A DNA stretch of 60,534 bases from Bacteroidales bacterium. GTDB lineage: Bacteria; Bacteroidota; Bacteroidia; Bacteroidales; F082. The position numbers were made by a program, and so were the translations under genes. A model generated the notes under the pieces. That model was given only the letters and a program-made list of their open reading frames with translations, had not been told where the DNA came from and ran no database searches. This document shows, piece by piece, positions 10,001 through 20,110 of the stretch. Within the stretch, counting starts at the first letter, position 1, and every line of letters starts with the position of its first letter. The DNA lies in assembly GCA_015491905.1 (NCBI GenBank), contig WGGC01000200.1:1-60534 (forward strand). The letters run 5' to 3'.

Positions 10001-11197
10001 ATGAATACTTTTAACGATATTAAAGAATTAGTAACCGCTCTCAAAAGAGAGGAGAAACTAATATCTGAAATGTTTGCTAAAAGAAAATCATTACCATATC
10101 AATTGAATTATGCCAGAGAATTAGTAGATTATGAAGATAGTAGAATTGATTTTTTAATTCAACACTCAGTAATAAACGAAAATGGAAGTGTTGTTGAATT
10201 AGACGACCTTTATCGTGAGTTTTTTGAACAAGTTTTAGACGTAAACGAAGAAATAAACCTTTCATATATTGATGAAAATATCAAAAATATAAAAGAGAAT
10301 ATTAATTACTATTTCAACGAAAATAATGAAAACAAAAGATATGCATATTTAAGAATAATAAAAAAAACTCTAAAAAAAATTGGGCTAATTACATTGCGTA
10401 GCGTTGTAGATATTAGACGTAATATTGAAAACACCTTTAAGAATGAGACTAATTATAAAAACAAACAACTGAAATTAAAAAACCTTGATAATAAACGAAT
10501 TATTGTTAACGATTTAATTAAACAGACGCTTAACCTTACAGATAAAGATGAATTAACATTCTTTACAGTTGCTATTGATGAAGAACTATCAAAAATAGTA
10601 ATAAATCTAAAAGGCCAACTAAATCAAAGTTCTCATAATTTAATTGAGATTGAAAAGCAAATTATTGATTACCTAAATCAAATAAAACATCAGGAGAGAT
10701 TTGTTGAGAAACTACGCAAATTAAAATATTTGAAAGACCACTTTTTAATTCAAGCTGAAACAAATATAAAACAAGTATTATCCCAAAATAATGATATTAT
10801 TTTTGAAGGTAAAAATATTGAACCTTTAAAATTGTCGATTACACACTTACAAATTGATGAAGATGCCAGATTAAATATCGAGAGAATTGCAAAGCATCAT
10901 TCGGAAAGAAAAAACATAATCCCCTTGCTCGCCGATAAAATTTCAGATGAATTTTTAGAAGATAGCGTTGAAGAAGAAATTTTTATTGATTTAGAAGAAG
11001 TGAAAAACGGTTTTATTGCTTCAAGTGATAATCTATTTAATTTTATTATGAAATATAACTTTATGAAAGAAGTTGATTTTAATGAGCGAGTGACGGTTTA
11101 TTGCCAAATGGTATCACAGTTTGAAAATAAATTGACAATAGAAGATAATTATGAAACCCAAAATGAGATTGAATACGCCTTGGTGTACCCAAAATAA
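10001..11197 (+). CDS. jetA: Wadjet-like JetA (MukF/kleisin-like subunit)
   Basis: First gene of a four-gene operon with the order, sizes and overlaps of Wadjet JetABCD systems. The 398-residue product is soluble and mostly helical, with an N-terminal region typical of winged-helix kleisin-type subunits (RKSLPYQLNYARELVDYEDSR), long middle coiled segments (about residues 90-260) and an acidic C-terminal domain. In Wadjet, JetA is the MukF-like kleisin that bridges the heads of the SMC-like JetC and carries JetB. Sequence similarity alone would not name it; the call rests mainly on the unmistakable JetC and JetD that follow. It is separated from jetB by six bases. Base use is markedly A-rich compared with the nar genes, consistent with transfer. 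Confidence 0.78.
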   Translation: MNTFNDIKELVTALKREEKLISEMFAKRKSLPYQLNYARELVDYEDSRIDFLIQHSVINENGSVVELDDLYREFFEQVLDVNEEINLSYIDENIKNIKENINYYFNENNENKRYAYLRIIKKTLKKIGLITLRSVVDIRRNIENTFKNETNYKNKQLKLKNLDNKRIIVNDLIKQTLNLTDKDELTFFTVAIDEELSKIVINLKGQLNQSSHNLIEIEKQIIDYLNQIKHQERFVEKLRKLKYLKDHFLIQAETNIKQVLSQNNDIIFEGKNIEPLKLSITHLQIDEDARLNIERIAKHHSERKNIIPLLADKISDEFLEDSVEEEIFIDLEEVKNGFIASSDNLFNFIMKYNFMKEVDFNERVTVYCQMVSQFENKLTIEDNYETQNEIEYALVYPK

Positions 11198-11203
11198 AAG
11201 ATA

Positions 11204-11773
11204 ATGACAAAATACACTTTTAAAATATTTGAAATTCTGCGCAAAGGGCAATTTATTTGTTCTAATAGCCCAAATGACGACATAAAAACCTTATATAAAA
11301 TTTTAGAAGACGATGGTACTTTTGTAGAACTTTACGACTATTTTAAAGAAATAAATTATCTATTAGAAAGGGGTAATGAGTATTTTTATTTTAGCAGAAA
11401 CGAGAATAATACCGATTTGGGAAGAAAATTAGAGAAAGCATTTGATTGGATTGATATTATTGATTTTTTTAATGCGTTTAATTCTTCTTTTGATGTTGGC
11501 TTTCGCTTTACCCCTTCTGAGATACATAGCCAGTTAAATATTAATGCAGATTTAAAATTCAAACTTGAAAACCTTAAAAGTATAAAACTTGAAAAGAAGA
11601 ATTATTTAGAACGTATAAAAAAAATAATAGAAAAATTAGAAAAAGATAATTACATAAGTCTTGAAAATGAACTTTCTGAAACTTATAAAGTTTTAACATC
11701 ATTTCATTATTTAAAAGATTTAATTAACACTATTAATATTCCTGAAAGTATAGAAAATGAGATACCTGAATAA
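11204..11773 (+). CDS. jetB: Wadjet-like JetB (MukE-like subunit)
   Basis: A 189-residue helical protein whose size and position match JetB, the MukE-like winged-helix subunit (DUF4194-type in described systems) that binds JetA and helps load the complex on DNA. Visible features are a short N-terminal helical domain (KYTFKIFEILRKGQFI), a central YFYFSR turn segment, and a C-terminal heptad-rich helix pair (about residues 125-170, LKSIKLEKKNYLERIKKIIE). It overlaps the start of jetC by 17 bases, so the two are probably translated together. The identification is contextual rather than motif-based. Confidence 0.75.
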   Translation: MTKYTFKIFEILRKGQFICSNSPNDDIKTLYKILEDDGTFVELYDYFKEINYLLERGNEYFYFSRNENNTDLGRKLEKAFDWIDIIDFFNAFNSSFDVGFRFTPSEIHSQLNINADLKFKLENLKSIKLEKKNYLERIKKIIEKLEKDNYISLENELSETYKVLTSFHYLKDLINTINIPESIENEIPE

Positions 11774-14700
11774 AGTTATTTTTATAAATAGTGCCACAAT
11801 AAAATTTGCAGAAATAAATATTGATGGCAATGTGCATTTTACGGGAACACAAGGCGTTGGAAAAAGTGTGTTATTGAGGGCTATTTTATTTTTTTATAAT
11901 GCTGATAAAACAAAACTTGGTATTCCGCGAGAAAAAAAACGTTTTGATGAATATTACTTTGAGTATCAGAATTCATATATTATTTATGAAGTAATAAAAG
12001 ACAATATTCCTTTTTCTATATTAGCTTATAAAGTAAATGGCAGAGTGGCTTTTCGCTTTTTCAATTCGGCTTTTCGCAAAGAATTATTTATTGATAAAAA
12101 TGGAAGAGCATTTGAAAGTTGGGACAAAATAAGAACAGCTTTTGGAAAAGACATTTACTATACAAAGCTAATACCTAATTATGAAGAATACCGACAAATT
12201 ATTTATGGCGATAATAAAGGGATGAAGCCTGAATTTAGAAAATATGCTATTATTGAAAGTAAACAATTTCAAAATATCCCAAGAACAATTCAAAATGTTT
12301 TATTAAACTCAAAATTAGAAGCTCAATTTATTAAAGACACTATAATAAATTCTATAAACGAGGAAGAAATTAAAATTAATTTAGAGAATTATTCAAAAAA
12401 TCATCTTCGTGGATTTGAAACTCAACTTAACGATATAAAATTATGGTTTAAAAAGAACAAAAAAGGACAGAACCCTGTTCAGAATCAAGCAAATAATGTA
12501 ATTGATAACTATAGAAGAGTAAATTTCATTATAAAAGAAAAAAATGAACTTGCAATAAATTTAGCTTATAGAATTAATTATATCGAAAAAGAAAAACCCA
12601 ATTTAGTATCAAATCACAGAAAAGAAGATGAGAAGCTTTTTGGATTAATTAAGCAAATTGAAAACCAGGATAAATTACATAAAAAAAGAGAACAAGATAT
12701 TATTTCAGATATTAAATTATTTAAAAATAAGCTAACAGAAGCTAAACAAAAACAAGAAGAATACAGGAGTAAAAATATAACTGAAATAATTAAGAAAATA
12801 TCACGCAAAAAAGATTTGTTGACAGAGCAGGAAGTAAAAGAAAAAGAAAAGAATATTCTTACGAGTGAATTTTCAGATATTAAACATAAATACGAAAGTT
12901 TAGTATCGCAAGCACAAAATCAACAAGAAAGTTTTTTTAATAATAAGACTTCTGAAATTAACGATGTTAAGATAAAATTTGCAGATGCTAAAAATAATAT
13001 TATTGAAAAATATCGTAAAATTATTGATGAAATAAAAGCAGATAATCAAGACCAAATAGATAAACATAATAATGAAAAAGAAATAATAAAAGAAAGAGAA
13101 AATGATTTAAAACGAAAAAAATCGGAACTTAAACACCTAGTTTTTTATAATGATGAAATAGAAAAGTGCAAGAATAGAACTATTGAATTAAATCAAAAAA
13201 TACAGAATTCTGAAACAGAAATAAAAAATGCACAGAACGAAATAAAATCATTAAGGAAAAATTGGGAATTTAAAGAAAAAGAGATCCTTAACAATACTAA
13301 TGGCTTAATAAAAGAACAGCAAAAACTTAAAGAAAAATGCACTTCTGATATTGCCGAAATAAACCATAAAATACAATCGAGTAAAAAATCGCTCTATGGT
13401 TGGCTAACTGATAATATATCGAATTGGGAAAGTAGCATAGGTAAAGTTATTGACGAACAAGTTTTGTTTAGCTCTGAGCTAAATCCACAACTTACTGATA
13501 AAAATTCTAATACTATTTTTGGCATAGAAATTAATCTAAATGCTTTACAAAACAAGGTTAAAACCGTTCAAGAATATCAATCAGAAATAGAAAATATTGA
13601 AAAAGAAATAAAAAATATTGAAAAAACTATTCTTCAAATAAATCAACAAAAAGATGATAATGTAAAAAAAATAAGAATTAAGTTTAGAAAAAAATTAAGC
13701 GGTTTTAACGAAAGTAAAGTAGAAAATGAATATCGAATTAATCAAACAAAAGAAGCGTTAAAGAAAAATAAAATAGCATTAGAAGAATGGAAATTAAAGT
13801 CAAAAACAAAAAAGAGTAAAAGAAACGATATAATTGAAGAAGGGCTTGAAAAGACAGCTATTGAGAGACAAAAAAACAGTGAAGATATTAAAAGACTAAA
13901 TAACTCAATAAAAGGAAAAATAACCAAAACAGGTAATATCGAAAATGAAGAAATAGCCAAAATAGAACAAATTAAAGATGAGACTATTGAGCAATTAAAT
14001 ATTACGATTATTAATAATAGAGGCGAAACTTCTAAACGCATTGAAGAGTTAAAACAGCAACAGTATTCAGAACTAAACGATAAAGGTGTAAATACAAGCC
14101 GAGTAGAAAAGATAGAAAAAAGACTAAATGAGATAAAACAAGACTTACAGTTTATAGAAGATAATCAACGTATTATGTATGATTATGAAAAAGATAAAAG
14201 AGAATTGTTTGATAAAATACAAGAATTTAATACCGAAAAATTAAGATTAGAAAAACGCCTTATTTCGTTAGAAAAAGAGCATACAATTGAAAAAGGGAAG
14301 CTAAAAACTAAGTCTCAAATACAAAATGAAATAGTTAAATCTCTGAAAGATAAAATAGATGAATTCGAGAAAGATTTAACTGAATTTGAAGAATTTGAAA
14401 AATCAGAAGTTTTTGAAGATATTCAAGATTATTTCACAAAAAATATAATATTAAAAAATACAGAAAACACAGCAACTTTATTAATTTCAGAAATTAAAGA
14501 TAAACATTATAGTATTAGTAAAAGAATAGATGAATTAAAACAATCTGTAAATAAGTTTATTGGAAACTTTGATGATAATAATATATTCAATTTCAAAGTT
14601 ACGTTTATTTCAAATAACGATTATTTCAACTTTGCTTTGGATTTAAAAGAATTTATTGAAGAAGATAAGATTACTGAATTTGAAAAAAGGATTAACGAAC

Positions 14701-15458
14701 GTTTTGTTGATATAATTCAATTAATAGGTAGAGAAACAACCAGTCTACAATCAAAAGAAGCGGAAATAGAAACTGTAATTAGAAAAATTAATAATGATTT
14801 TTCAAAACGAAATTTTGTTACTGCAATTAAAGGTATGGAAATGCGAACTCAGCCAAGTTCAAATAAAGTTGTTCAATTACTGGTTCAAATAAAAGAGTTT
14901 AACGATAAACACGGATTGGAATTAGGTGAACGTGATTTATTTACATCTGCAAATTCAGGCAAGAAAAACGAAAGAGCTGTTGAATTGTTAAAACAACTGA
15001 TTACCGAATTAGATAAACAGAAGAACTCCATACTAACTCTTTCAGCTTCATTCGATTTACAATTTAGAATAATTGAAAACGATAATAATTCAGGCTGGGT
15101 AGAAAATCTATCTAACGTAGGTAGCGAAGGAACAGATGTGTTAGTTAAGGCAATGATTAATATTATGTTGCTAAATGTATTTAAAGAAAGCGCATCAAAG
15201 AAATTTAAAGATTTTAAATTGCATTGTATGATGGATGAAATAGGAAAACTTCATCCTAATAATGTAAAAGGAATTTTGAGGTTTGCCAACGATAGAAACA
15301 TACTTTTAATAAATAGTTCACCAACAAGTTACAATGCTACTAACTATCGTTATACATATATTTTATCAAAAGTAAAATCAGGAGCAAACACCTATGCTAC
15401 TAAAATAAAACGATTAATTAAAGCAAATAATAGTATTGCCGATGAATTTAAGTCTTAA
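11757..15458 (+). CDS. jetC: Wadjet-like JetC (SMC/MukB-like ATPase)
   Basis: A 1233-residue SMC-type ATPase. The N-terminal head has a Walker A motif GTQGVGKS at residues 30-37. Two very long coiled-coil arms (about residues 240-560 and 620-1000, rich in Lys and Glu heptads) flank a central hinge-like part near residues 560-620 (SLYGWLTDNISNWESS). The C-terminal head has an ABC signature-like NVGSEGTD at about residue 1120 and a Walker B, HCMMDEIGKLHP, with D1160-E1161. In Wadjet the JetABC motor extrudes loops on closed circular DNA and presents small plasmids to the nuclease JetD. The gene overlaps jetB and jetD. The very A-rich codon use stands out from the flanking nar and housekeeping genes. 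Confidence 0.9.
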   Translation: MRYLNKVIFINSATIKFAEINIDGNVHFTGTQGVGKSVLLRAILFFYNADKTKLGIPREKKRFDEYYFEYQNSYIIYEVIKDNIPFSILAYKVNGRVAFRFFNSAFRKELFIDKNGRAFESWDKIRTAFGKDIYYTKLIPNYEEYRQIIYGDNKGMKPEFRKYAIIESKQFQNIPRTIQNVLLNSKLEAQFIKDTIINSINEEEIKINLENYSKNHLRGFETQLNDIKLWFKKNKKGQNPVQNQANNVIDNYRRVNFIIKEKNELAINLAYRINYIEKEKPNLVSNHRKEDEKLFGLIKQIENQDKLHKKREQDIISDIKLFKNKLTEAKQKQEEYRSKNITEIIKKISRKKDLLTEQEVKEKEKNILTSEFSDIKHKYESLVSQAQNQQESFFNNKTSEINDVKIKFADAKNNIIEKYRKIIDEIKADNQDQIDKHNNEKEIIKERENDLKRKKSELKHLVFYNDEIEKCKNRTIELNQKIQNSETEIKNAQNEIKSLRKNWEFKEKEILNNTNGLIKEQQKLKEKCTSDIAEINHKIQSSKKSLYGWLTDNISNWESSIGKVIDEQVLFSSELNPQLTDKNSNTIFGIEINLNALQNKVKTVQEYQSEIENIEKEIKNIEKTILQINQQKDDNVKKIRIKFRKKLSGFNESKVENEYRINQTKEALKKNKIALEEWKLKSKTKKSKRNDIIEEGLEKTAIERQKNSEDIKRLNNSIKGKITKTGNIENEEIAKIEQIKDETIEQLNITIINNRGETSKRIEELKQQQYSELNDKGVNTSRVEKIEKRLNEIKQDLQFIEDNQRIMYDYEKDKRELFDKIQEFNTEKLRLEKRLISLEKEHTIEKGKLKTKSQIQNEIVKSLKDKIDEFEKDLTEFEEFEKSEVFEDIQDYFTKNIILKNTENTATLLISEIKDKHYSISKRIDELKQSVNKFIGNFDDNNIFNFKVTFISNNDYFNFALDLKEFIEEDKITEFEKRINERFVDIIQLIGRETTSLQSKEAEIETVIRKINNDFSKRNFVTAIKGMEMRTQPSSNKVVQLLVQIKEFNDKHGLELGERDLFTSANSGKKNERAVELLKQLITELDKQKNSILTLSASFDLQFRIIENDNNSGWVENLSNVGSEGTDVLVKAMINIMLLNVFKESASKKFKDFKLHCMMDEIGKLHPNNVKGILRFANDRNILLINSSPTSYNATNYRYTYILSKVKSGANTYATKIKRLIKANNSIADEFKS

Positions 15459-16302
15459 AATAGCGAAAATATTAGTCAGACTCGAAAATGGAGAAACTAT
15501 TCCTGCAAGCTCTGCCAAGAATAGACTAATTGATGAATTGGTTAATGAGAATATTATATTAAAATCAGGAAAACATAAAAAAACATTACAGTTAATAAGC
15601 AATGAGCAGTTAAAATTATATCTTTCAAATCAATTACAAATAAATAGTTTGGAAGCGTATATTTCTTTATTAAAGAAAAAAGAGAGTAGTAGAGCCGACT
15701 TTGTTAAAATTACTACTAATTCTAAGATTTCTAAACAAAGAGTTTTTAAAGGTTTTTTAGTTAATTCTTATTTGCCAATAAATGCAATATTAAACAATCA
15801 AACTTTTGTAATAAATCCGATAGATGGCAGTTTTGTATTTATTTATGATTACGAAAATTTTATTATAGACCCATACATTACAATTGTTGGAGTAGAAAAT
15901 TCTGAAAATTTCAGACAAATTCAAAAGCAAAAATATCTTTTTAAAGGAATAAACCCATTATTTATTTCTCGTTATCCGCAAAACCAAAATAAAGATTTTA
16001 TAAAATGGATGAAATCTATACCTAACAGATATTTACATTACGGTGATTTTGATTTTGCAGGCATTGGAATTTATCTTAATGAATACAAAAAACATTTAAA
16101 TGAAAGAGCATCATTTTTTATTCCTTCAAAAATTGAGGCTTATCTAAAATCGGAATATGCAAGCAGAGAACGATATGATAACCAGAAAATTAATTTTAAT
16201 GTATCTAATATCGAAGAACCAAAATTAAAAAACCTTGTTCGTGTAATTGAAAGAGAAAGAAAAGGTTTAGACCAAGAATTTTTCATTAATAGAATTAAAT
16301 AA
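15436..16302 (+). CDS. jetD: Wadjet-like JetD (Toprim nuclease, topoisomerase VI A-like)
   Basis: A 288-residue protein with a C-terminal Toprim fold related to topoisomerase VI subunit A and Spo11. The catalytic glutamate is in TIVGVENSENF (E154), and the metal-binding DxD is in LHYGDFDFAGIG (D204 and D206). An N-terminal winged-helix-like region (about residues 1-120) probably binds DNA. In Wadjet, JetD cuts DNA that the JetABC motor has extruded. It is shorter than the ~390 residues I recall for classical JetD, with a compact N-terminal part, so it may belong to a divergent subtype. It overlaps jetC by 23 bases; a second in-frame ATG two codons later is an alternative start. Confidence 0.85.
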   Translation: MPMNLSLKIAKILVRLENGETIPASSAKNRLIDELVNENIILKSGKHKKTLQLISNEQLKLYLSNQLQINSLEAYISLLKKKESSRADFVKITTNSKISKQRVFKGFLVNSYLPINAILNNQTFVINPIDGSFVFIYDYENFIIDPYITIVGVENSENFRQIQKQKYLFKGINPLFISRYPQNQNKDFIKWMKSIPNRYLHYGDFDFAGIGIYLNEYKKHLNERASFFIPSKIEAYLKSEYASRERYDNQKINFNVSNIEEPKLKNLVRVIERERKGLDQEFFINRIK

Positions 16303-16544
16303 TATTCAAGACAATTATTCAGAAATACTACTATACAAAACTGAAGATGGAAAATAAAAATAGACCTTTATTTTGACGCAGATAATTTGTAGCTCACACA
16401 AAAGCTAATGTCAGAGCTGTTTGAGTATAGCACCAATACTATTTCATTACATCTAAAAAATATTTTTAGTCCTTGAATTTTAGTAATATCTTTGTCCTGT
16501 AGCATAATGGTATCTTTATTTGTTATCACTACAAAAAAAAACAC

Positions 16545-18087: not shown

Positions 18088-18508
18088 TTATAAGTAACAC
18101 ACAACAACAGGCTAATTATAAGCTGGCGTTAAGTACGTAAATAAACGGAATAACAATTATTTATTGGTGCCCAGTTACGAAAGTATAGCATTTCAATTTG
18201 CCCGCCAGCAGATGGCTACAAGACGTTAGAACTAATTTCCTAATATCTGATACAGAAAGATATAGCATTTTAATAAAAAAATTGGCGTGAGAACAGGCGG
18301 CGCAATTACATCAGTATGGGTGGCACAACTTGGACCAGTCTATCCAATCCGATTTTTTAAACAAAATAAGCTATCTTCTCCCCCAGCGGCAAAAAGGCTT
18401 ATATTTGCTTGGAATTTTTAAACGCTAACCCGATTATTAACCAAATGAAGATGGCTTTTTAGAAGGAATGCCGTTAGCAACTATTAAAAACTTAAACCTG
18501 AATTCAAA
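18088..18508. other. Gene-free stretch with repeat-like motifs
   Basis: No coding region is supported. A TATATTTG box at about 18399 could be the -7 element for the LytTR gene. The pair GCTAAC (18424) and GTTAGC (18473) forms an inverted repeat 44 bases apart just before that gene, resembling the paired cores of integron attC sites. A piece at about 18283-18350 (GTGAGAACAGGCGGCGC) looks like an old coding fragment but has no usable frame. Confidence 0.45.
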
Positions 18509-19564
18509 ATGAAATTGAACAAATTTTTACTTCCTTTTATCTTATTACTATTAGGAATAGTTTTTTATTTTAGTTTTAACTTTACATTTACTTCAGTATC
18601 AAACAACTTGCTCCAACAGCAAGTGGAAATGTCTAAAAGTCAAGCAAATTTAATATCAAATCTTTTAGCTACAAGGCTTGAAAATGGAATTTCTAAAAAT
18701 GCAGTTGCTTCTGAATTACAAAAAAGTATTGAAAATTTTAATACTGAAAACAGTTTTGTTTGTATGTTTGATAATACAGGGAAAGAAATCTGTCATCCAA
18801 ATAAAGAAAAAATAGGAAAAATACTTACCGAAAATAATTCAGTAATTCAATTAGGTTCAAATTTTGAAATTGAAAATAACTTTAAAAGCGCAATTATAAA
18901 TAAAAAATCAACAGGTGGTATTCGAAAAATGAAGAACCATACTGAAATTGTGTATTTAAGTCCTGTAAGAAACAGCGATTGGATTATTGCTTCTCATTCG
19001 AATATAGAAAAAGAAAAAATCCTAATTAATAAGCTAAAAGAAAAATTACTTTTTACATTCATTATTCTATGGCTTTTGAGTTCTTTATTAATCTTTTACT
19101 TTCTTAATCTAATAAATAAAAGAAATTTAAAAGAAATTTCAGAAAATAATAAAACCATAAGTGAAAAATATTTTAACGAATTGAAAACTATCCAAACTAA
19201 GTTTATCACTCCAGAAAAAAAACAAATAGAACGTCTTTTAGCTGATAAAGGAACAAAATTATCACCAGTTGTCATTAATAATATTGCCTACGTCTTTACT
19301 CAAAATAGAATTACCTATATAGTTGAACACAACGGAGAAAAATCAACTATCAATTTAACATTAGATGAACTCTTTAAAACTTTTAACGAAAACAAATTTT
19401 ATAGAGTATCAAGGCAAGTAATTCTATCCGCTAAATCAATAGACAAAATTGAAAAATATGGAAATACTCAATTAAAAGTTTTAACAGATCCTCCTTCGCC
19501 CATTGATATAATTATAAGTAAAGCAAAACTCACTGAATTTAAAAAATGGGTAGGCAAAAATTGA
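18509..19564 (+). CDS. Membrane sensor with cache-like domain and LytTR DNA-binding domain
   Basis: A 351-residue one-component regulator. A transmembrane helix (residues about 8-30) and a second one (about 173-198, FTFIILWLLSSLLIFYFLNLI region) enclose a ~140-residue extracytoplasmic domain with single-cache features (LISNLLATRLENGIS, FVCMFDNTGKEICHPN). The C-terminal ~100 residues form a LytTR domain (NNIAYVFTQNRITYIVEHNG, FYRVSRQVILSAKSIDKIE), which binds direct-repeat operators. It would sense an external ligand and control transcription from the membrane. It is tail-to-tail with the cytochrome P460 gene with no bases between the two stop codons. Its targets are not evident; the adjacent secreted heme protein and binding protein are candidates. 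Confidence 0.85.
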   Translation: MKLNKFLLPFILLLLGIVFYFSFNFTFTSVSNNLLQQQVEMSKSQANLISNLLATRLENGISKNAVASELQKSIENFNTENSFVCMFDNTGKEICHPNKEKIGKILTENNSVIQLGSNFEIENNFKSAIINKKSTGGIRKMKNHTEIVYLSPVRNSDWIIASHSNIEKEKILINKLKEKLLFTFIILWLLSSLLIFYFLNLINKRNLKEISENNKTISEKYFNELKTIQTKFITPEKKQIERLLADKGTKLSPVVINNIAYVFTQNRITYIVEHNGEKSTINLTLDELFKTFNENKFYRVSRQVILSAKSIDKIEKYGNTQLKVLTDPPSPIDIIISKAKLTEFKKWVGKN

Positions 19565-20110
19565 TTATTGCAATTTCTGAAACTTAGTAAAAACATATCC
19601 ATTATCTTTTGCCAGATTATGACAAGAGATACAACTTACTGTTCCTTTATCCCAACTTTTATACTTACCTCCTTTTTTGACAAATCTTGCATATCCCCAA
19701 TTACCAGGTTTTTTAGGAAAACGTATTTTATCTTTTATCATATATTCAATCCTCTGAATTTTATTTGCTTCAAGTGCAACGTCAAAGTTTTTCATTTTTT
19801 CAACATTCCATCCTATTTTAACAATTTTACTTCCTTCAGGAAAGGGTTGGTTTTTATAAAAAGCTTTAAAAGCTTTCTTGTTTGCTAAAACATACCGCAA
19901 TTCATTTTTATCTGTACGATAATGCGCCGCAACAATCTTATAATTTTTATAATTTTTTACTTCTGTAAAAGATAAATTGTTATTTGGCATAACTAAATCC
20001 GGAACATCTGAAATAATATGATAATCAGATTCATTTTTATCATTGCACGAGATCAAAGAGAAAGAAAATAGTATTACTAGAAGAATTACTGAGTTTTTAA
20101 TTACTTTCAT
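19565..20110 (-). CDS. Cytochrome P460-like lipoprotein
   Basis: A 181-residue protein with a lipoprotein signal peptide and lipobox-like cysteine (SLISCND, about residue 22). The fold features match cytochrome P460: NYKIVAAHYRTDKNELRYVLANKKA in the first half, WGYARFVKKGGKY in the middle, and a single heme c site CISCH followed by DNGYVFT at the C-terminus. P460 proteins oxidise hydroxylamine or bind NO, so a link to nitrogen oxides from the nitrate reductase in this window is plausible but unproven. It lies about 110 bases after an AcfC-like gene on the same strand, and the conserved sequence also seen before jetA sits in that gap. Confidence 0.85.
   Translation of the reverse strand: MKVIKNSVILLVILFSFSLISCNDKNESDYHIISDVPDLVMPNNNLSFTEVKNYKNYKIVAAHYRTDKNELRYVLANKKAFKAFYKNQPFPEGSKIVKIGWNVEKMKNFDVALEANKIQRIEYMIKDKIRFPKKPGNWGYARFVKKGGKYKSWDKGTVSCISCHNLAKDNGYVFTKFQKLQ

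Follow-up and report, generated by a model that had tools for sequence, protein, structure and literature searches.

The 60,534-nucleotide contig WGGC01000200.1 of a Bacteroidales bacterium (assembly GCA_015491905.1), referred to here as the window, carries an operon of four intact genes on the forward strand at positions 10001–16302. By analogy with Wadjet type I, and with a probability of roughly 0.8, this operon encodes a complete Wadjet-like system in which JetABC would extrude DNA loops and JetD would cut small circular DNA; plasmid restriction is the best-supported putative function. Sequence comparisons support a candidate Wadjet-like (JetABCD/MksBEFG) lineage distinct from type I, and membership in types I–III is unsupported. 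L and G numbers denote individual loci and genomes. The four genes, with lengths in amino acids (aa), are:

10001–11197, + strand: JetA-like kleisin gene (398 aa; from the open reading frame listing)
11204–11773, + strand: JetB-like KITE gene, MksE family (189 aa; PF21980 MksE)
11757–15458, + strand: JetC-like SMC ATPase gene (1233 aa; PF12128 DUF3584)
15436–16302, + strand: JetD-like nuclease gene (288 aa with the listed TTG start; PF23947 DUF7281 and PF09983 JetD_C)

An initial annotation, made from the sequence alone, had described four overlapping or nearly touching genes here, and all four open reading frames are present at these positions. The JetB and JetC reading frames overlap by 17 bases, those of JetC and JetD by 23, or by 17 if JetD begins at the ATG at 15442. 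This codon, six bases downstream of the listed TTG, fits the starts of the relatives better and is the probable true start. Searches of 84,980 species genomes retrieved 538 stretches matching a JetC motif, 514 of which encode a relative; one gene can match both JetC motifs, as 34 of the 80 fetched do, so that the 514 stretches represent about 260–514 genes. Relatives were fetched from the best 80 of these loci and their genes identified with profiles from the family alignments. The order A-B-C-D on one strand was found in 70 of the 80, JetB and JetC overlap in 67 of those 70, and JetD was found in 72 of the 80. A conservation of order on this scale exceeds chance by far, and with this overlap it shows that the parts travel together. 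Among the remaining ten loci, L057 and L089 end at a contig edge, L059 and L066 are without JetA and JetB within the stretch, and L079, L087, L094, L096 and L104 are without JetD. In a Chitinophagaceae metagenome-assembled genome (MAG) the operon is split, with JetB and JetC at L062:3751–7966 and JetA and JetD on another contig (L155:3335–8949), where MOSC, cytochrome c and cyclophilin genes lie between them.

JetC aligned with DUF3584 over nearly its full length (residues 18–1190, 160.8 bits). The motifs expected of an SMC-type ATPase of 1233 residues are all in place and conserved: Walker A at G30–S37 (GTQGVGKS), the signature at N1120–D1127 (NVGSEGTD) and Walker B at D1160–E1161, each with little or no variation across an alignment of 10 rows. 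Of 81 JetCs, 80 show the Walker A pattern, which L084 misses by a single change, and 78 contain HCMMDE exactly. The signature pattern is present in 69; the 12 others are one residue off (e.g. VGSNGTD). At E ≤ 1, no canonical SMC, RecN or SbcC Pfam family was matched, only DUF3584 and a sub-cut-off AAA_29, and the concern that JetC might match RecN, SbcC or a chromosomal condensin instead of Wadjet SMCs does not apply.

JetA and JetB had been recognised mainly by position, and both can now be recognised independently. JetB matched MksE (PF21980) with 141.7 bits against a cut-off of 27; it had no PADLOC match. JetA has no Pfam family above cut-off (two matches fell below it) and none in PADLOC or NCBIfam, and its recognition comes from its predicted fold. 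The JetA model, built from 11 sequences (mean predicted local distance difference test score, pLDDT, 71; predicted template modelling score, pTM, 0.43), has helices and a strand pair towards each end, with a long helical stretch between, in kleisin fashion, which suggests that the ends are winged-helix-like; 10 relatives of JetA were aligned. A fold search with this model returned six PDB matches with E ≤ 0.001, all of them chains of MukBEF and MukE–MukF structures; a chain of the Escherichia coli JetABCD core ranked eighth (E = 1.1e-3) and MukF(1–287) ninth. E-values of the MukBEF and MukE–MukF chains ranged from 1e-5 to 1e-3, and query template modelling (TM) scores were low (0.17–0.33 in the first ten) because 93 residues were modelled below pLDDT 50. 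On this model, JetA is a predicted MukF-like kleisin. None of the four proteins has a convincing solved relative by sequence.

JetD matched DUF7281 (PF23947) with 39 bits and JetD_C (PF09983) with 22.5 bits, the cut-off for the latter being 22. It consists of a winged-helix-like N-terminal half and a C-terminal Toprim domain with E154, D204, D206 and E281. The three acidic residues singled out by the initial annotation, E154, D204 and D206, are shared by all 79 JetDs compared, as are N155, G209, Q280 and E281 (L015 and L051 in this alignment are the same contig). The N-terminal half has no invariant tyrosine (Y75 comes closest, in 72 of 79, and is missing in several family members), as expected of a nuclease, not a topoisomerase. 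The JetD model (9 sequences, mean pLDDT 84) matched the Topo VI-A/Spo11 fold in six cases, with E-values from 6e-6 to 7e-4, query TM scores of 0.36–0.43 and alignments of 306–353 columns covering both halves, and the doubt whether JetD has a Toprim fold does not apply. As modelled, JetD would combine a CAP (winged-helix) domain, a Toprim domain and an acidic metal site with the lack of a catalytic tyrosine.

The mechanism we propose is modelled on Wadjet type I as presented in a review (PMC10586767). JetC dimers would be linked through the JetA kleisin together with dimers of the JetB KITE protein, and ATP use would drive loading on DNA and loop extrusion. Once a small circle is fully extruded, the Toprim nuclease of JetD would be freed from autoinhibition and would cut the circle, so that small plasmids would be lost and the long chromosome spared. 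What the sequences themselves show is the four parts with their folds or families, intact ATPase and Toprim residues, a conserved operon and a patchy distribution; that the complex extrudes loops, senses circular DNA, cleaves it and serves in defence we infer from type I biochemistry.

With a kleisin, a KITE protein, an SMC ATPase and a Toprim subunit in one operon, the locus has the Wadjet architecture in the broad sense, as first proposed. Assignment to a named type is another matter. Using the models of PADLOC v2.0.0, we retrieved matches only for JetC (JetC1, 23.6 bits) and JetD (JetD1, 26 bits), and neither JetA nor JetB matched DUF3375 or DUF4194 at E ≤ 1; the operon is thus without the marks of type I, namely DUF3375, DUF4194 and strong matches to the JetA1–JetD1 models. 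From the type II and III models, only JetC2 was listed, at E = 7, and nothing else up to E = 10, a range in which the HMMER filters drop most weak matches. As a yardstick we used L025 (G434, same family), a true type I operon, which scored 632, 198, 1111 and 510 bits against the type I models A–D. Its own cross-matches (E ≤ 0.01) were 37 bits for JetC against type II, none for JetC against type III, and 28 and 25 bits for JetD against types II and III. The window's proteins score against type I about as highly as one named type scores against another, and their distance from type I is therefore comparable to the distance between named types.

The tree of JetC heads comprised 65 rows: the window, seven of ten family loci, 35 of the 80 genome loci, L145, eight loci called type I, eight with the gene order C-B-A-D and five others; 45 of the 80 genome loci, L017, L018, L021 and L152 were omitted, and no authentic type II or III rows were included. 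In this tree, 44 rows including the window (the window clade) fall on one side of a branch with 96/94 support (94% of bootstrap trees). The eight type I rows stand on another branch (100/100); their assignment came from PADLOC scans for two of them, L025 and L139, and from gene sizes and order for the other six. Eight DUF3584 rows of the G550 phylum occupy a third branch (100/99). The window row groups with rows titled Flavobacteriaceae, Crocinitomicaceae, Ichthyobacteriaceae, a Bacteroidales MAG, Fibrobacter and a Bathymodiolus symbiont. Long branches meet in the tree (8.8 changes per column to type I), those of type I and the window clade included, and treekit warned that they may attract one another; for this reason no branching order among the far groups is claimed. 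PDLC00591 and PDLC00556, searched for types II and III, matched 12 and 7 of 200 genomes respectively, all weakly, and yielded no authentic members. The tree proposed by the initial annotation has thus set the window clade apart from type I and left types II and III unplaced. The suggestion of a divergent subtype is upheld both by this separation and by the lack of a good PADLOC match to types I–III; a formal new Wadjet type is not claimed, because the comparison covers no authentic proteins of types II and III.

That the operon is an aberrant member of one of the named types (I, II or III), and not a lineage of its own, is unlikely. The weak JetC1 and JetD1 matches, the gene order shared with L025 and the lack of types II and III on the tree would suit such a form; the yardstick scores and the 96/94 and 100/100 branches argue against it, though the branches concerned are very long. 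Type I and the operon share the kleisin–KITE–SMC–Toprim composition and a JetD that pairs winged-helix and Toprim parts and has no invariant catalytic tyrosine. They differ in that the window JetA is without DUF3375 and has 398 aa (485 aa in L025), JetB belongs to MksE with no DUF4194 match, JetC lies beyond a long branch, and JetD carries DUF7281 and has 288 aa (386 aa in L025), whereas type I has DUF3322/DUF2220; the SMC of type I is DUF3584-like. With MksBEF/MukBEF the operon shares the MksE family of JetB, the best folds of JetA (MukBEF/MukEF chains) and a MukB-like SMC; it differs by the Toprim nuclease found in 72 of 80 related loci and by a patchy distribution. The operon thus has the MksE-family KITE of MksBEF, and the presence of JetD departs from a three-subunit complex without Toprim. 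In Corynebacterium glutamicum, MksBEFG is likewise an SMC complex with a Toprim nuclease (MksG), and C. glutamicum also matches the MksE model. In PMC10123090, however, where MksBEFG is called Wadjet type I, MksG-like proteins appear as DUF3322/DUF2220, whereas the window JetD is DUF7281.

A further set of operons resembles that of the window. Loci L181–L188, from the phylum of G550, encode a DUF3584 SMC of about 1230 aa, a JetB-like protein and, in seven of eight, a kleisin-sized protein of 405–417 aa; DUF7281 was found in five of five last genes scanned, and the one JetB scanned matched MksE with 27.5 bits (cut-off 27). They differ in gene order (C-B-A-D, against A-B-C-D) and in the separate, well-supported branch of their JetC. 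PADLOC matches were weak in L181, L186 and L187, which were scanned wholly or partly. Because the C-B-A-D group carries DUF7281 last genes, a larger putative DUF3584–MksE–DUF7281 assemblage is suggested. MksE operons with unplaced SMCs and weak or no PADLOC matches were also found at L142, L143, L144, L146 and L147. Two of these, retrieved through MksE, are four-gene operons (L144:4735–10826 and L146:7501–13623), with an SMC of 1056–1080 aa that has no PADLOC match at E ≤ 0.001 and a last protein of 305–317 aa that has no Pfam match (L144 tested) and carries CEN and CDWDxxGL Toprim-like motifs. MksE matches were listed for many genomes of family f18 (genera g49 and g54), and the idea that they mark a condensin was rejected for L139, L140 and L156: their kleisin-sized partner is DUF3375, the MksE match of L140 is also DUF4194 and the SMC of L139 is JetC1, i.e. 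type I Wadjet. In L140:8813–10893 and L156:6520–8855, the DUF3375 kleisin is followed by a gene of 210–211 aa (DUF4194 in L140) with no evident JetC nearby, a gap that could reflect decay or frameshifts.

Our literature search found nothing on Wadjet with MksE in Bacteroid-named taxa and nothing on DUF7281; the search on DUF3584 gave nothing about Wadjet, judged by titles. The 2011 description of MksBEF reportedly found it to be widespread, with subfamilies that vary and that in some cases have a Toprim partner, and part of the diversity of the window clade may therefore already be in print.

The distribution of the window clade is patchy and does not follow taxonomy. Titles of the best 80 loci are nearly all Bacteroidota, with single Fibrobacter, Melioribacter, Desulfuromusa and Bathymodiolus endosymbiont records. 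Within the family, the MksE model matched 12 of 149 genomes, the window's included; ten of the other 11 carry an operon of the window type (10 of 148 other genomes), and G434 carries type I. At two of these family loci, L018 and L021, the contig ends before JetD. No MksE match was found in the 11 other genomes of the genus, in line with the accessory region first proposed. The MksE profile matched 60 of 395 phylum genomes, of which just two exceeded 95 bits, the window's own (141.5 bits) and G506 (140 bits); among 17 neighbourhoods from the 60, only that of G506 (L145) was in the window clade. A plain protein search with JetC in 296 phylum genomes returned itself and two weak partial matches (E = 6e-5 and 9e-4). 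The clade is therefore rare in an even sample of the phylum, with one genome beyond the window's, and more frequent in its own family; the idea that it is common across the phylum was rejected on this count.

On its left the operon is flanked by a nitrate-reductase-like operon, named from its sequence, and a DUF488 gene. On its right lie an aspartyl-protease-like gene and, before it, a probable relic:

16303–16482, + strand: probable remains of a RhuM-family gene, interrupted by a stop and a frame change, directly downstream of JetD and outside the system

Conceptual translations of the relic resemble, by eye and not by profile, the intact RhuM-like proteins beside JetC in L059 and L066. The right-flank gene, sought for an empty-site comparison, had no relative in 11 congeners. 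G+C content is 24–27% in the operon and 30–40% on its left side; positions 18500–19999 are also at 25–26%, and low G+C is therefore a weak sign of transfer. Three family relatives carry a gene of 514–544 aa between JetB and JetC:

L020:11127–12671, L021:2236–3813 and L022:10768–12402: Schlafen AlbA_2 and RecG-C-like insert, within the operon

SLFN_AlbA_2 was also found in 4 of 136 first neighbours of other loci. No Pfam family occurs in more than five of the 136; GajA, type I and type II methyltransferases, SoFic and RhuM are each found in two. At E ≤ 1e-10, PADLOC returned 225 families among the 136 neighbours and 19 among 89 control genes, numbers that count families, not proteins, some of them generic (mad3 matches two of the 89 controls); genes longer than 900 aa were dropped from the scan (3 of 139 near, 6 of 95 control). 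These neighbourhoods give only a hint of a defence context. At the edge of an IMG/VR provirus contig (L207:1–3657) lies a full-length JetC that belongs to the clade, with no JetD found beside it.

JetD relatives were found on four plasmid records, and the three examined (65, 76 and 157 kb, circular; L225, L226 and L227) carry all four genes, i.e. a presumed anti-plasmid system on plasmids. The 65- and 76-kb records belong to a single assembly in which plasmid numbers run to at least 29, and their plasmid status is less sure. In pPP6 of Persicobacter psychrovividus, the operon lies three genes from a relaxase-like gene, and RefSeq labels its products as three hypothetical proteins and one ATP-binding protein.

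JetD seems to have been lost several times in the clade. The JetD profile detected nothing in five of seven genomes searched, those of L094 (Bacteroides fragilis S82), L096, L104, L087 and L079, nor in G506 (99% complete), the one of six searched that was without it. All six members encode full-length JetA, JetB and JetC and keep the JetC motifs. In L087:7451–12940, which has no JetD, JetA is inverted and follows JetC. On the tree, JetD changes state at least five times among the 44 rows (38 with, 6 without); the count itself gives no direction, and loss is favoured over gain because JetD is present in most rows. Two losses look recent: L104 shares 84–85% DNA identity with L102, which has JetD before the matching tRNA-Met, and L079 is 88% identical to L086 almost to the end of JetC. 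No relics of JetD were found in the six loci, the best match (E = 0.74, L087) being far from the operon. Only L094 is from a named isolate and four are from MAGs, and assembly error is possible in each case. An OLD-like Toprim ATPase and a UvrD-like helicase (the latter named by eye), in Gabija fashion, were considered as a substitute effector in L104; replacement is not claimed, because JetD is simply absent between JetC and tRNA-Met and the other pair lies beyond the tRNA, as judged against L102.

Several of these observations weigh against a plasmid-restricting Wadjet-like system. The PADLOC models of types I–III do not claim the operon, and the 50 fold matches listed for JetD include no chain of a solved JetD. 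Relatives reside on circular plasmids of 65–157 kb, and the system does not bar all plasmids. Neighbours are diverse, no PADLOC family matching more than three of the 136 flanking proteins. Several members are without JetD; in some hosts JetABC has another use or is decaying.

The last point raises the alternative of a mainly chromosome-organising condensin (MksBEF) with a retained Toprim subunit, which would replace Smc–ScpAB where that is lacking. ScpA (PF02616) was not found in seven of ten genomes searched (the window's genome, its congener G297, G300, G418, G506, G444 and G445) and was found in G446, G447 and G449; nine of 14 control genomes match. The MksE membership of JetB and the six members keeping JetABC also suit a condensin. 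The genus, however, lives without MksE, as judged from its 11 other genomes, the congener G297 having neither ScpA nor MksE, and JetD is found in 72 of the 80 loci with its acidic residues invariant in all 79 full-length sequences, so that we regard this alternative as decidedly unlikely for the operon. The stronger idea that the window clade is the condensin of Bacteroides is unsupported, the control Bacteroides ihuae having no MksE match. For the members without JetD, a condensin role is a conjecture and decay the plain alternative, above all in L104 and L079. Defence mainly against phage or replicating mobile DNA, not plasmids, is very improbable: GajA and restriction methyltransferases among the first neighbours and the single provirus contig are in keeping with it, but JetC had no match in 50,697 phage records, which shows only that phages do not carry JetC, and type I systems act on circular plasmids (PMC10586767).

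RefSeq gives uninformative labels to the complete operon on pPP6, and the clade members tested have no good match in the PADLOC release used; surveys of plasmid barriers in Bacteroidota therefore probably overlook systems of this kind, a gap relevant to how readily these bacteria can be manipulated genetically. The clade also offers natural pairs with and without JetD. MksBEF condensins have been proposed in a review to have arisen from Wadjet through loss of JetD (PMC10586767), and repeated loss of JetD with JetABC kept would make this idea directly testable. What a Hi-C study says of the two Bacteroidetes it examined is that no known condensin is present, the question being left open (PMC10197239). 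Three of the six members without JetD, B. fragilis S82, the MAG behind L096 and G506, are also without ScpA. We tentatively suggest a further Wadjet lineage (MksE, DUF3584, DUF7281), scattered across Bacteroidota and outside the three types, that has repeatedly yielded nuclease-free JetABC condensins, a possibility that we consider real though doubtful. If it is true, nuclease-free JetABC could take the place of the condensins that the phylum lacks in hosts without ScpA, and the clade would be a live example of defence turning into chromosome maintenance.

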